From Thauera phenylacetica B4P (GTDB taxonomy: Bacteria > Pseudomonadota > Gammaproteobacteria > Burkholderiales > Rhodocyclaceae): DNA of 50,569 bases. The notes under the pieces were generated by a model. That model was not told where the DNA came from. It did not search any database and saw nothing but the letters and a program-made list of their open reading frames with translations. The stretch is taken from NCBI RefSeq assembly GCF_000310225.1, contig NZ_AMXF01000007.1, positions 1-50,569 on the forward strand, written 5' to 3'. The translations under genes and the position numbers were made by a program. The number at the start of each line of letters is the position of its first letter. The first letter of the stretch is position 1. Shown here piece by piece: positions 27,365 to 41,457 of the stretch.

Positions 27365-27372
27365 GACTGCTC

Positions 27373-28924
27373 CTAGCAGCCTGTCGGACTACCCCCTGTA
27401 AAATGCCGCATCGCCCCCGGATCCTGAGAGCATGAGCCGCTTCCGCCCGATCGACCGCCAAACGGACTACCTGCTGCCGCCCTCGGTACAGGAGTGGCTG
27501 CCCGAAACGCACCTGGCGCGCTATGTGGTCGACGTGGTCGAGGCACTGGACCTGTCGGCGCTGGAGCGGGCGTATGCGGGGCGTGGGAGCGATGCGTACC
27601 ACCCGGCGATGCTGCTGTCGCTGCTGATCTACGGCTACGCGACGGGGACGCATTCGAGCCGCCGGATCGAGCGGGCGACTTACGATTCGCTGGCGTTTAG
27701 GTTCATCGCCTGCAACCAGCACCCGGACCACGACACCCTGGCGAGTTTCCGGCGCCGCTTCGGCGAACAGTTCGCCGAGCTCTTCGTGCAAGTGCTGCAG
27801 GTCGCACGCGAGAACCAGCTCTCGCGCTTTGGCACGGTCAGCCTGGACGGCACCAAGCTGCACGCCAACGCCTCCCGGCACAGTGCGCTGTCTTACGGGC
27901 ACGCGCAGAAGATCGAAGCGCAGCTCAAAGCCGAGGTGCAGGAGATGCTCAAGCTGGCCGAGGCTGCCGACCAAGGCAATGTGCCTGAGGGGGTGGATTT
28001 ACCGGCGGAGATCAAGCGCCGCGAAGACCGTCTGGCGGCCATCGCGACGGCCAAAGCCAAGATCGAAGCCCGCGCGAAGGAACGTTTCGAGCGCGAGCAA
28101 GCCGAGTACGAGGCGAAGATGGCCCAGCGCCAGGCCAAGCAGGCGAGCACGGGCAAGAAGCCCGGTGGCAAGCCCCCCAAGCCCCCGCAGACGGGGCCAC
28201 AGGCCGAGGATCAGATCAATCTGACCGATGAAGACTCGCGCATCATGAAGGTGGCGGGCGGTGGTTTCGAGCAGTGCTACAACGCGCAAGCTGTGGTCGA
28301 TACCGAATCGATGCTGGTGGTGGCGCCCCACATCACCACCGCCGGTAACGACAAGGAGCAGGTCGCGCCGATGCTCGAGTGCATCCAGGCACTGCCCGAT
28401 GGGCTCAATCAACCCGCGCGGCTGCTGGCCGACACCGGCTTTTACAGCGAACGCAACGTCCAGCACTGCCACGACGCCGGGGTCGAGCCGCTGATCGCAG
28501 TGGGGCGCGATGCGCATCATCCGGATTGGCGCAGCCGCTTCGAGGAGCCCGCACCGCTCGAGACGCCCACCTCCCACGTCGAGCAGATGAAGCACGCCCT
28601 CAAGACCCAGACCGGTCGCGCCGCCTACGCGCTGCGCAAACAGACCGTCGAGCCGGTGTTCGGCATCATCAAGTCCGTGATGGGTTTCCGTCAGTTCCTG
28701 CTGCGCGGTGTTGGCAACGTGCGCAACGAATGGACGCTGGTCTGCCTCGCGTGGAACTTCAAGCGCATGGCCGTATTGCGTCTGCAGTGAGAAGAAACGA
28801 CAGGAGCATGGCGATTTCACGCGAAAAAGGCGCTTTCGGCTCTGAAATGCCGATTATTTTTCACATCATGAAAACCCGCCTGCCGGTACGCCGTCCGCCG
28901 GCTTCAAGTCCGACAGGCTGCTAG
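27373..28924. mobile_element. IS1182-family insertion sequence with CTAG target duplication
   Basis: A 1544-bp element (27377-28920) flanked by CTAG at 27373-27376 and 28921-28924. Terminal inverted repeats are exact over 14 bp: CAGCCTGTCGGACT at 27377-27390 and its reverse complement at 28907-28920. Because CTAG is its own reverse complement, the matching ends span 18 bp, so CTAG could formally be part of the ends rather than a target copy. One intact transposase gene fills it. It sits exactly at the pilV stop codon, between pilV and pilW. Perfect ends and an intact gene argue for recent insertion. Confidence 0.92.
27432..28790 (+). CDS. IS1182-family transposase
   Basis: A 452-aa DDE transposase. 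N-terminal DUF772-like part: FRPIDRQTDYLLPPSVQEWL and YHPAMLLSLLIYGYATG. First Asp in GTVSLDGTKLHANASRH, second in LLADTGFYSERNV, catalytic Glu in QTVEPVFGIIKSVMGFRQF. A long charged insert (about 160-250, KAKIEARAKERFEREQAEYE) is a coiled coil typical of this family. Full-length and apparently active. Encoded on the strand opposite to the pilin operon. Confidence 0.95.
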   Translation: MSRFRPIDRQTDYLLPPSVQEWLPETHLARYVVDVVEALDLSALERAYAGRGSDAYHPAMLLSLLIYGYATGTHSSRRIERATYDSLAFRFIACNQHPDHDTLASFRRRFGEQFAELFVQVLQVARENQLSRFGTVSLDGTKLHANASRHSALSYGHAQKIEAQLKAEVQEMLKLAEAADQGNVPEGVDLPAEIKRREDRLAAIATAKAKIEARAKERFEREQAEYEAKMAQRQAKQASTGKKPGGKPPKPPQTGPQAEDQINLTDEDSRIMKVAGGGFEQCYNAQAVVDTESMLVVAPHITTAGNDKEQVAPMLECIQALPDGLNQPARLLADTGFYSERNVQHCHDAGVEPLIAVGRDAHHPDWRSRFEEPAPLETPTSHVEQMKHALKTQTGRAAYALRKQTVEPVFGIIKSVMGFRQFLLRGVGNVRNEWTLVCLAWNFKRMAVLRLQ

Positions 28925-29316
28925 ATCCCGACGATGTGCGCAACCACGACCACGTTGCTCGCCCGATCCGCCCCCGGCGCCTGCCAGGTGACCGTGACGG
29001 TGACACGCTCGCCCGCGATCGTCGTGGTGCGCTTGCCATTCGGCAGCGAAGCGCCCGGGAAGGCGGCACTGACGTCGGTTCCCGACTCGCCGAAGGTGCT
29101 CAGCGCACCCGGTCGCGCCCAGATCTCCCCAACCCGCGCATTGGCGATGAAGCTGGCGTCGGTACGGTATTTCGCGGCCGTCGTGTGCTGGATGGCCGCG
29201 GCCTGCAGGCCGATGATCCCCAGCACCCCGAAGGCCAGCACCAGCACCGAGATGAGCACCTCGAGCAGGACGATCCCTTCGACGCGGCGCGGACGGCGAG
29301 AAGCACGCTTGCCCAT
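28921..29316 (-). CDS. pilV: Minor pilin PilV
   Basis: A 131-aa minor pilin: leader MGKRASRRPRRVEG then IVLLEVLISVLVLAFGVLGI, with Glu at +5. The TAG stop lies inside the CTAG sequence at 28921-28924 used by the IS, so the reading frame is intact to its last codon. It begins 2 bases after the fimT stop. Works with PilW, PilX and PilY1 in priming pilus assembly. Confidence 0.9.
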   Translation of the reverse strand: MGKRASRRPRRVEGIVLLEVLISVLVLAFGVLGIIGLQAAAIQHTTAAKYRTDASFIANARVGEIWARPGALSTFGESGTDVSAAFPGASLPNGKRTTTIAGERVTVTVTWQAPGADRASNVVVVAHIVGI

Positions 29317-37421: not shown

Positions 37422-38960
37422 ATGAACCTCCTGCGCGCGCTCGCCACCGTCAGCGGCATGACCCTGCTGTCCCGCATCCTGGGCTTCGTGCGCGACCTCG
37501 TGATCGCGCGCGCCTTTGGCGCAGGCATGGCGACCGACGCCTTCTTCGTCGCCTTCCGCCTGCCCAACCTGCTGCGCCGCATGTTCGCCGAGGGCGCCTT
37601 CTCGCAGGCCTTCGTACCCATCCTCGCCGAGTACAAGAACCGCCAGGGCGAGGCCGCCACCCACACCCTGGTCAGCCGCGTCGCCACCGTGCTGGGGCTG
37701 GTGGTGGCGGTGGTCGCGGCGCTCGGCGCGCTCGCCGCGCCGCTGATCATCTACGTGTCGGCGCCGGGCTTCTCCGGGGACCCGGGCAAGTTCGAGCTCA
37801 CCGTCGAGCTCACCCGCATCACCTTCCCCTACATCTTCTTCATGTCGCTGGTGGCGCTCGCGGGCGGCGTGCTCAACACCTGGAGCCGCTTCGCCATCCC
37901 GGCCTTCACGCCGGTGCTGCTCAACCTCGCCTTCATCGGCATGGCGCTGTTCGCGGTGCCCTGGTTCGACCCGCCGGTGCTGGCGCTGGCCTGGGCGGTG
38001 TTCCTCGGCGGCCTGCTGCAGCTCGCACTGCAGATCCGCCCGCTGATGAAGATCGGCATGATGCCCCGCTTCGACCTCGACCTCTCCGACCCCGGCGTGC
38101 GCCGCGTCATGAAGCTGATGGCGCCGGCCATCCTGGGCGTCTCGGTGAGCCAGATCTCGCTGCTGATCAACACCATCTTCGCCTCCTTCCTCGAGAGCGG
38201 CAGCGTGTCCTGGCTGTATTACGCCGACCGCCTGATGGAGTTCCCCGCCGGCCTGCTCGGTGTGGCGCTGGGCACCATCCTGCTGCCCAGCCTCTCCAAG
38301 CTGCACGCCGACGACAAGGCCGAGGAGTTCTCCTCGCTGCTCGACTGGGGGCTGCGCCTGACCCTGATGCTGACCCTGCCCGCCGCGCTCGGGCTGGCGC
38401 TGCTGGCGGTACCGCTGGTGGCGACGCTGTTCAACTATGGCGCCTTCACCCCCGCGGACGTGATGCAGACGCGCAGCGCGCTGGTCGCCTACAGCGTGGG
38501 GCTGACCGGGCTGATCCTGGTGAAGGTGCTGGCGCCGGGCTTCTACGCGCGCCAGGACATCCGCACGCCGGTGAAGATCGCGATCCTGACCCTGGCGGCG
38601 ACGCAGCTGATGAACCTCGCCTTCGTGATCCCCCTGCGCCACGCGGGGCTGGCGCTGGCGATCGGCCTGGCGTCCTGCCTCAACGCCGCCCTGCTGTATC
38701 GGGGGCTGCGCAAGCGCGAGGTGTACATCCCCCAGCCGGGCTGGGGCCGGTTCGCGCTCAAGCTGCTGGTGGCGCTCTGCGTGATGGGCACGGCGCTGTG
38801 GTTCGCGAGCGGACCGACGAGCCTGTGGACCGAGATCGGCGGACTAGAGCGCGGCCTACGCCTGGCGCTGATCGTGCTGGGCGGCGCCATCGCCTACTTC
38901 GCCACCCTGTTCGCGCTCGGCTTCCGCCCGCGCGACTTCCGCCGCCGCGGCGCGGCCTGA
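37422..38960 (+). CDS. murJ: Lipid II flippase MurJ
   Basis: A 512-aa polytopic inner-membrane protein (about 14 helices) of the MATE-related MurJ/MviN family, moving lipid II across the membrane for peptidoglycan synthesis. The N-terminus [20 protein letters not shown], then [15 protein letters not shown], and the conserved [15 protein letters not shown] loop are diagnostic; charged residues of the central cavity (for example Arg in SRILGFVRD) are kept. A weak TTATCG-N17-TATGAT (37343-37371) may be its promoter. The stop is directly followed by the repeat array. Confidence 0.96.
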
Positions 38961-40423
38961 AGCGGCCATTCGCGGCTGCCGCCGCTCCTACAACACCGGA
39001 GCTGCGGCAGCGCTCCTGCACGCACATCGTCGCCGCGCCGGTTCCTGTAGGAGCGCCGGCAGGCGCGAATGCGCGGTGCCGGCTGCGCAAGCCCTCGTCG
39101 CTCGTGACACGGCCGTTTTCGCGGCTGCCGCCGCTCCTACAACACCGGAGCGGCGGCGGCGCTCCTGCACGCACATCGTCGCCGCACCGGTTCCTGTAGG
39201 AGCGCCGGCAGGCGCGAATGGGCGGTGCCGGCTGCGCAAGCCCCCGTCGCTCGTGACACGGCCGTCTTCGCGGCTGCCGCCGCTCCTACAACACCCGGAG
39301 CTGTGGCGGTTCTCCTGCACGCACATCGTCGCCGCGCCGGTTCCTGTAGGAGCGCCGGCAGGCGCGAATGCGCGGTGCCGGCTGCGCAAGCCCTCGTCGC
39401 TCGTGACACGGCCGTCTTCGCGGCTGCCGCCGCTCCTACAACACCCGGAGCTGTGGCGGTTCTCCTGCACGCACATCGTCGCCGCGCCGGTTCCTGTAGG
39501 AGCGCCGGCAGGCGCGAATGCGCGGTGCCGGCTGCGCAAGCCCTCGTCGCTCGTGACACGGCCGTCTTCGCGGCTGCCGCCGCTCCTACAACACCGGAGC
39601 TGCGGCAGCGCTCCTGCACGCACATCGTCGGCACGCCGGTTCCTGTAGGAGCGCCGGCAGGCGCGAATGCGCGGTGCCGGCTGCGCAAGCCCTCGTCGCT
39701 CGCGACACGGCCGTCTTCGCGGCTGCCGCCGCTCCTACAACACCCGGAGCTGTGGCGGTTCTCCTGCACGCACATCGTCGCCGCGCCGGTTCCTGTAGGA
39801 GCGCCGGCAGGCGCGAATGCGCGGTGCCGGCTGCGCAAGCCCTCGTCGCTCGTGACACGGCCGTCTTCGCGGCTGCCGCCGCTCCTACAACACCGGAGCT
39901 GCGGCAGCGCTCCTGCACGCACATCGTCGCCGCGCCGGTTCCTGTAGGAGCGCCGGCAGGCGCGAATGCGCGGTGCCGGCTGCGCAAGCCCTCGTCGCTC
40001 GTGACACGGCCGTCTTCGCGGCTGCCGCCGCTCCTACAACACCCGGAGCTGTGGCGGTTCTCCTGCACGCACATCGTCGCCGCGCCGGTTCCTGTAGGAG
40101 CGCCGGCAGGCGCGAATGCGCGGTGCCGGCTGCGCAAGCCCTCGTCGCTCGTGACACGGCCGTCTTCGCGGCTGCCGCCGCTCCTACAACACCGGAGCTG
40201 CGGCAGCGCTCCTGCACGCACATCGTCGCCGCGCCGGTTCCTGTAGGAGCGCCGGCAGGCGCGAATGGGCGGTCCAGGCTGCGCAAGCCCCCGTCGCTCG
40301 CGACACGGCCGTCTTCGCGGCTGCCGCCGCTCCTACAACACCCGGAGCTGTGGCGGTTCTCCTGCACGCACATCGTCGCCGCGCCGGTTCCTGTAGGAGC
40401 GCCGGCAGGCGCGAATGCGGGCC
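38961..40423. repeat. Tandem array of ten REP/BIME-like units (149/150 bp)
   Basis: The marker CGCGGCTGCCGCCGCTCCTA starts units at 38971, 39120, 39269, 39419, 39569, 39718, 39868, 40017, 40167 and 40316 (the last shortened). Each unit has two REP-like palindromes in opposite orientation: GCGGC-TGCC-GCCGC followed by CTCCTACA, and TGTAGGAGC followed by GCGCC-GGCA-GGCGC. Two unit types differ in the middle: type A (149 bp, GGAGCTGCGGCAGCGCTCCT) and type B (150 bp, GGAGCTGTGGCGGTTCTCCT). Order: A, A', B, B, A, B, A, B, A, B. The array fills the whole gap between the stop codons of convergent murJ and the LysR gene. Open frames across it are by-products of composition, not genes. Confidence 0.95.
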
Positions 40424-41350
40424 TCAGGCAACCGGCGGCAGTGGGATCTCGTCACTGCGCCGGGCGCCGGCGGTGAAGGCGCGGCAATCCTCGACGAAGC
40501 GGCGCAGCGCGGCGCCGTGGTATTTGCCGCGATGCCAGACGAAACTGAAACGCCGGCGCAGGTCGAGTTCCGGCACCTCCACCGCCACCAGGCTGCCGCG
40601 CCGGAAGGCATCACGCAGCGCCAGCCGCGACAGGCAACCCAACCCAAGGCCGCTCTCCACCGCGCGCTTGATCGCCTCGGTGTGCTCGAGCTCGAGCCGC
40701 GGCACGACCCCGGCCGGGTGATGCCGCAGCGCGCGATCGAAGGTCTCGCGCGTGCCCGAGCCGCGCTCGCGCAGGATCCACGGCTGCCCCGCAAGCTCGG
40801 CCACGCTCGCGCGCCCGCGTGCCGCCAGCGCATGCCCCGGCGCGCAGAACACCACCAGCTCGTCCTCGACCCAGGGCTCGGTGTGCAGCTCGGCATCGAC
40901 CACCTGGCCCTCGACCAGGCCGAGGTCGATCTCGTGATGCAGCAGGCGCTCGGCGATGGTCGCGGTGTTGCGCACCTGTAGCTGCACCCGGCTCTCGGGG
41001 TGGGCCTGGAGGAAATCCGACACGATCAAGGGCAGCAGGTAGTTGCCGATGGTCAGCGTCGCCCCCACACGCAGCGGGCCCAGGCCCTGCTCGCCGCGCA
41101 TGCGGCCCTCGAGCTCGGCGGCGCGGTCGAGCAGCTCGACTGCGTACGGCAGCAGCAGGCTGCCCTGCTCGTTCAGGCGCAGGCGCTTGCCGTGGCGGTC
41201 GAAGAGCGGCTGGGCGCACTGGCTCTCCAGCTCGGAGAGCGCCGCGCTCGCCGCCGACTGGGACAGCGCGAGGCTCTCTGCCGCGCGCGAGACGTGCTCG
41301 GCGCGGGCCACCGCGACGAAGACCTGGATCTGGCGGAGGGTGAATCTCAT
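40424..41350 (-). CDS. LysR-type regulator divergent from fpr (FinR-like by context)
   Basis: A 308-aa LysR-family regulator: winged HTH at residues 1-60 (TLRQIQVFVAVARAEHVSRA, SLALSQSAASAALSELESQ) and a periplasmic-binding-fold effector domain (about 90-295). Divergent from ferredoxin-NADP reductase across 107 bases. In Pseudomonas the LysR regulator FinR sits divergent from and activates fpr under redox stress, so the same role is inferred here; orthology is not proven. The ATG at 41350 is favoured; the longer frame upstream lacks support. The stop abuts the repeat array. Confidence 0.88.
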   Translation of the reverse strand: MRFTLRQIQVFVAVARAEHVSRAAESLALSQSAASAALSELESQCAQPLFDRHGKRLRLNEQGSLLLPYAVELLDRAAELEGRMRGEQGLGPLRVGATLTIGNYLLPLIVSDFLQAHPESRVQLQVRNTATIAERLLHHEIDLGLVEGQVVDAELHTEPWVEDELVVFCAPGHALAARGRASVAELAGQPWILRERGSGTRETFDRALRHHPAGVVPRLELEHTEAIKRAVESGLGLGCLSRLALRDAFRRGSLVAVEVPELDLRRRFSFVWHRGKYHGAALRRFVEDCRAFTAGARRSDEIPLPPVA

Positions 41351-41375
41351 ATCGATGAAGTCGATTAAGGATATG
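41348..41375. promoter_or_regulatory. Inverted repeat, candidate LysR operator
   Basis: CATATC (41348-41353) and GATATG (41370-41375) are exact inverted arms 16 bases apart, in the gap between the LysR gene and fpr and overlapping the LysR start codon, as expected for an autoregulated LysR site. A TAGAAT at 41410-41415 could be the fpr -10. Confidence 0.35.
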
Positions 41376-41457
41376 AAGATTATCCACGATCCAGGTAACG
41401 AGGACGACCTAGAATCGCCCCATTCCCACCTCACGCAGCCTGCAGAGACCCGAAACC

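Follow-up and report, generated by a model that had tools for sequence, protein, structure and literature searches.

How did the gap between two convergent genes come to be filled, almost from stop codon to stop codon, by ten tandem copies of a palindromic repeat? The question is raised by the Thauera phenylacetica B4P contig NZ_AMXF01000007.1 (assembly GCF_000310225.1), which we analyzed as a single stretch of 50,569 nucleotides (positions 1 to 50,569, forward strand; hereafter the window). At positions 38969–40419, between murJ and a gene for a LysR-type regulator, it carries a tandem array of repetitive extragenic palindromes (REPs). With a probability of about two in three, we consider this array a cluster of the bacterial interspersed mosaic element (BIME) or REP doublet forming hairpin (REPIN) type that belongs to the GTAG-1 REP family of Thauera and arose from a REP dimer spread by a REP-associated tyrosine transposase (RAYT), followed by growth and homogenization in place.

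Structure of the array

Tandem Repeats Finder reported the array as 9.7 copies of a 150-bp unit with 95% matches and, in an alternative call that scored slightly higher, as 4.9 copies of 299 bp with 97% matches. Ten anchor copies were separated by successive distances of 149, 149, 150, 150, 149, 150, 149, 150 and 149 bp, which exactly reproduced the unit spacings of a first-pass annotation made from the sequence alone, and they delimited nine complete units of 149/150 bp plus a partial one of about 106–109 bp. The unit order given in that annotation, A-A'-B-B-A-B-A-B-A-B, was also correct. B units 3, 4, 6 and 8 were mutually identical, the first two being neighbors of 150 bp each (39267–39566), units 1 and 7 differed by a single base, and units 5–6 and 7–8 formed two A+B dimers of 299 bp (39567–40164). 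The array is intergenic and occupies the convergent gap as had been described, beginning 8 bp past the stop codon (38958–38960) of murJ (37422–38960, plus strand; lipid II flippase, Pfam MurJ, 487 bits) and ending 4 bp from the stop codon (40424–40426, other strand) of the LysR-type regulator gene (40424–41434, minus strand; Pfam HTH_1 and LysR_substrate).

A scan that allowed up to 4 mismatches in 23 positions found 20 REPs. Minus-strand copies of type Y and plus-strand copies of type X alternate strictly, and the spacers between them measure 55/56 or 48 bp. Each unit thus contains two inverted REPs with GTAG tags, in agreement with the two opposed REPs per unit noted earlier. In both REPs, a GTAG tag and two more bases adjoin a 5-bp stem that encloses a 4-base loop; a short palindrome with a terminal GTAG is characteristic of the GTAG REP superfamily, while the even spacing of alternating REPs in tandem modules is that of BIMEs and REPIN clusters. 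The repeating unit can be read in two phases, either as a tail-to-tail pair with GTAG inside, present ten times (first pair at 38969–39069, with Y on the minus strand at 38969–38991 and X on the plus strand at 39047–39069), or as a REPIN-like head-to-head pair of 94 bp with GTAG outside, present nine times (first pair at 39047–39140), which straddles the border of the 149/150-bp unit.

REP family and probable cognate RAYT

The REP pattern GTAGGAGCGNCGGCANGCNCG had 269 + 342 = 611 exact matches in the B4P genome, a 5.02-Mb draft of 681 contigs, and its reversed control had none. The element thus also shows the high copy number of the GTAG REP superfamily. The first-pass annotation had held that absence of the core elsewhere in the genome would argue against a REP family; the core proved abundant, and the identification as a REP/BIME tandem array was supported. 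Among 29 Thauera genomes, eight contained the pattern (G000, 611 matches; G013, 521; G021, 100; G024, 15; G016, 13; G008, G018 and G022, one each), and a wider pattern found related REPs in 21.

Of three Y1 transposase genes in the B4P genome, the one on contig C210 passed the NCBIfam model NF047646 for REP-associated tyrosine transposases (145.5 bits; cut-off 80), and we read an HLH motif in its sequence. Exact copies of the array's REP flank this gene on both sides, as expected of the cognate RAYT of a BIME or REPIN, so the search for a RAYT that had been proposed as a check found one. The Y1 genes on C49 and C66 were set aside as partners: the former had no GTAGGAG or GTGGGAG in 3.3 kb, and the latter had neither tag nearby and scored 77.6 bits against the same cut-off. 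Relatives of the C210 RAYT (E-value up to 1e-10) were found in 12 of the 29 genomes, and GTAG/GTGG REP-like repeats of differing variants lay near the RAYT at 11 of these 12 loci (one locus per genome; no shuffled control). In the genomes with the most REPs, RAYT identity tracked REP number: 100% with 611 matches, 99% with 521, 83% with 100 and 68% with 15.

Beside another Thauera RAYT gene (locus L163, 1960–2092), a 13-base piece starting GTAGGAGCGGGTC occurs ten times, every 13 bases up to the end of the locus; here a REP tag has become a short tandem repeat.

Tandem arrays across the genome

All of 20 REP-rich stretches of the B4P genome held tandem arrays, with 2.0 to 12.1 copies; because the stretches were picked for their REP clusters, this figure indicates that arrays are common and not what share of REPs lies within arrays. 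The longest array, on C11, comprised 12.1 copies of 116 bp with 25 REPs. The length of the window array is therefore not unusual, and the earlier view that its length and regularity set it apart did not hold. Consensus units of 23 arrays in this genome have the REPs in common, but their mean agreement was only 0.70 over ungapped columns and 0.575 with gaps counted as mismatches, compared with 0.963 among the units of the window array; arrays are thus homogeneous internally and diverged from one another. Parts of both spacers appeared similar by eye. This spacer likeness suggests that the arrays probably derive from related dimers.

When the 20 other stretches, the window and the RAYT locus were pooled, head-to-head spacers were nearly constant (111 intervals; median 46, quartiles 45–48) and tail-to-tail spacers variable (119 intervals; median 28, quartiles 26–55). 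The same rule of thumb, conserved head-to-head and variable tail-to-tail spacers, is given in section 14 of PMC3733652. In the long-period arrays (period 140–171; L168, L175, L178, L180, L184 and the window), tail-to-tail spacers were 54–79 bp as against the usual 23–29 bp, and the motif preceding GTAG appeared by eye to be doubled in some of them. One such locus on contig C19 of the same genome (L168, 1096–6607) has five REP clusters in about 5.5 kb, two of which are 150-bp tandem arrays.

The orthologous site in related species

The B4P MurJ shares 97% identity with the MurJ proteins of Thauera aminoaromatica S2 and L064, a Thauera metagenome-assembled genome that represents a sister species. 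Among 80 MurJ loci, 14 had a LysR relative on the opposite strand inside the fetched DNA, and the tag GTAGGAG/CTCCTAC was present in four of these 14 murJ/LysR gaps (L064, L066, L072 and L134). L064 carries a seven-unit array of the same unit, homogenized to its own variant. Two degenerate units are present in L066, other REP variants in L072 and L134, and a GTGG variant in the L065 gap; six of the 14 gaps measured 9–84 bp and lacked the tag.

Mean unit identity, from which partial last units were excluded throughout, was 0.963 within the window array, 0.990 within the L064 array and 0.923 between them. The two arrays differed at five fixed columns and shared no polymorphic column, and their flanking genes were 95.1% (murJ) and 93.5% (LysR) identical. 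From orthologous arrays with fixed differences and no shared polymorphism, we infer that the array most likely predates the split of the two species and has been homogenized separately in each since then.

The sister array also bears on whether misassembly produced the unit number or unit order seen in the window. A draft in 681 contigs invites that suspicion, as do four units identical over 150 bp, which are hard for short reads. Since L064 is a separate genome and holds its seven units at the orthologous site on a 1.3-Mb contig, an array at this site is real and only the exact unit number in the window comes into question; an artefact of number or order is in our view unlikely, and the exact number is not secure.

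Unit types and higher-order structure

The first-pass annotation had described a third palindrome, GCTG-CGG-CAGC, in type A units and its loss from type B. The palindrome was found in units 1, 5, 7 and 9, while unit 2 (A') has other bases there. The predicted hairpin energies of this spacer were −11.3 kcal/mol in A, −11.9 in A', −5.8 in B and −5.8 in the sister species. Because the B and sister spacers fold the same weaker hairpin and A' folds a strong one with other bases, a loss in B is doubtful. The L064 units resemble B in length and spacer, with an identity of 0.932 between B and the sister units and 0.914 between A (units 1, 5, 7 and 9, unit 2 left out) and the sister units. This resemblance makes A more likely the recent unit type than B a type that lost a palindrome, though two species are insufficient to fix the direction.

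Growth of the array by duplication of A+B dimers had been proposed from the unit order. The order itself is right, but it goes only weakly beyond chance: the permutation p-value for lag-2 minus lag-1 identity was 0.044 over the ten window units, that for lag-2 identity over the nine full units was 0.10, and a count of A/B runs by hand gave 42/252 = 0.17. Lag tests on six other arrays (L167, L170, L169, L172, L181 and L064) all gave p-values of at least 0.05, the unit cutter having found fewer units than Tandem Repeats Finder in L170 and L169. Growth by A+B dimers is thus possible.

Origin and growth of the array

The observations are consistent with the following sequence of events. Spread by a RAYT in single-stranded form, a REP dimer would have landed in the short murJ/LysR gap before the species split. 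Unequal recombination, gene conversion or replication slippage could then have multiplied the resulting direct repeats on the spot and homogenized them.

Several points weigh against this reading. The distribution of RAYTs and REPs is not fully matched: genome G016 (77% complete) has 13 REP matches and no RAYT hit, and G003, G015, G027 and G028 have a RAYT hit with 0–2 matches to either REP pattern, although the patterns may not cover the variants of these four genomes. Among 27 clusters of at least four REPs, 15 opened with '<' and closed with '>', that is, with REP bodies outward, as against 4 in the reverse orientation, with 5 and 3 mixed; a founding head-to-head REPIN does not predict such ends. 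Finally, passages of PMC2817692 argue that length differences among BIMEs are unlikely to result from recombination or slippage alone, so that the RAYT may build the array itself.

In that alternative, the array would be extended by the RAYT, through successive rounds of strand transfer or by copying a dimer circle in a rolling manner, and not by host recombination or slippage. The position of the RAYT among REP clusters and the body-outward ends would fit, as would the case made in passages of PMC2817692 and PMC3116915 for a RAYT-linked or a second mechanism. However, each array has sequence variants of its own, the unit order does not look like a regular product, and ordinary tandem dynamics suffice without a RAYT. 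We therefore regard construction by the RAYT as rather doubtful and favor a RAYT-spread dimer that grew in place. A broader proposal goes further. Thauera would keep many satellite-like arrays that RAYTs actively amplify at fixed sites and that tune nearby genes; each would have higher-order A+B repeats and body-outward ends and would undergo concerted evolution, as eukaryotic satellite DNA does. This we consider improbable.

Folding and possible function

On the plus strand, single units were predicted to fold with REP paired to REP at energies of −84.3 and −82.3 kcal/mol, which none of 200 shuffles equaled (z-scores of −3.3 and −3.5). The minus strand folded less strongly, with z-scores of −2.3 and −1.9, and 6 of 200 shuffles did as well. 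In read-through RNA, each unit might thus form a hairpin of about 100 nt that would at most protect 3' ends or damp read-through. Between 38800 and 40600, no intrinsic terminator (0.6 in shuffled sequences) and no sigma-70 promoter (0.0 in shuffled sequences) was found. The array had also been suggested as a site for integration host factor (IHF), and an IHF site between REPs is the mark of E. coli BIME-1; in a consensus search, which is a weak test, no match with up to 1 mismatch lay in the array and two lay in the window, where 3.68 were expected. The 15 Rfam matches at E-values up to 1 (microRNA families and one 3' UTR element) scored far below the gathering thresholds and were discarded as chance hits on GC-rich hairpins.

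These results bear on whether selection keeps the array as an insulator or 3'-end stabilizer, acting through hairpins, Rho-dependent termination or gyrase sites. Strong unit folding on one strand and weaker folding on the other, the tight fit between two gene ends, the retention of the array in the sister species and the involvement of E. coli BIMEs with gyrase and Rho, described in parts of PMC2817692, all speak for such a role. Yet 10 of the 14 orthologous gaps lack the tag, six of them being 9–84 bp long, which argues against a need for it, and neither the terminator nor the IHF search returned a candidate in the array; a selected function appears improbable. According to section 15 of PMC3733652, most REPs between convergent genes in two species are no more than 20 bp away from either gene end, so an array within 20 bp of two gene ends has the usual placement. 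Lying 8 and 4 bp beyond the genes, it would do little harm. Its hairpins are probably tolerated and provide at most some 3'-end insulation, and we hold, less firmly, that the array is chiefly a selfish, tolerated repeat.

Comparison with known REP clusters

The GTAG-1 repeats of Thauera sp. MZ1T, as passages of PMC3733652 present them, have 5-bp stems, were found via a tandem repeat database and are largely clustered, large clusters being mostly singletons or dimers reiterated in tandem with flanking DNA. The window array resembles them in genus, GTAG tag, stem length, clustering and tandem dimers with flanks; the likeness is one of description, and those passages contain no murJ/LysR array. 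A Thauera RAYT and its many REPs are described in parts of PMC2817692, whose BIMEs share with the window array the alternating REPs, the tandem modules and the cognate RAYT. Since clustered GTAG-1 REPs of Thauera and the RAYT are thus in print, the window array is an instance of a known repeat type, and it is ordinary for the genus.

Some differences are evident. Stenotrophomonas inter-REP segments are without homology in the account of PMC2817692, whereas spacers in the B4P genome are partly alike between arrays. In Pseudomonas fluorescens SBW25 (PMC3116915), tandem clusters likewise consist of near-identical REPINs with flanks, one of them beside a RAYT, but the largest of these REPIN clusters comprises four REPINs and one REP, and tandem REP arrays reach 12 REPs, as against 20 in the window and 25 on C11. 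Tandem inverted REPs preceded by GTAG also make up E. coli BIME-2, described in PMC2817692 and PMC8266576, but its REP sequences differ, and gyrase binding is a trait known of that element.

The route from a REP dimer to a tandem array is unsettled: a second mechanism is inferred for clusters in parts of PMC3116915, and PMC2817692 questions whether recombination or slippage suffices. In two closely related Thauera species, orthologous arrays differ in unit number and carry fixed variants, which makes them good material for this question, as do the many further arrays in the B4P genome.

A probable insertion sequence in the window

Elsewhere in the window, a gene for a DDE transposase (27432–28787; Pfam DDE_Tnp_1 and DUF772) lies within a stretch at 27365–28937 that has no counterpart in the aligned region of G013, where its flanks are 24 bp apart; the stretch is probably a recent insertion sequence.
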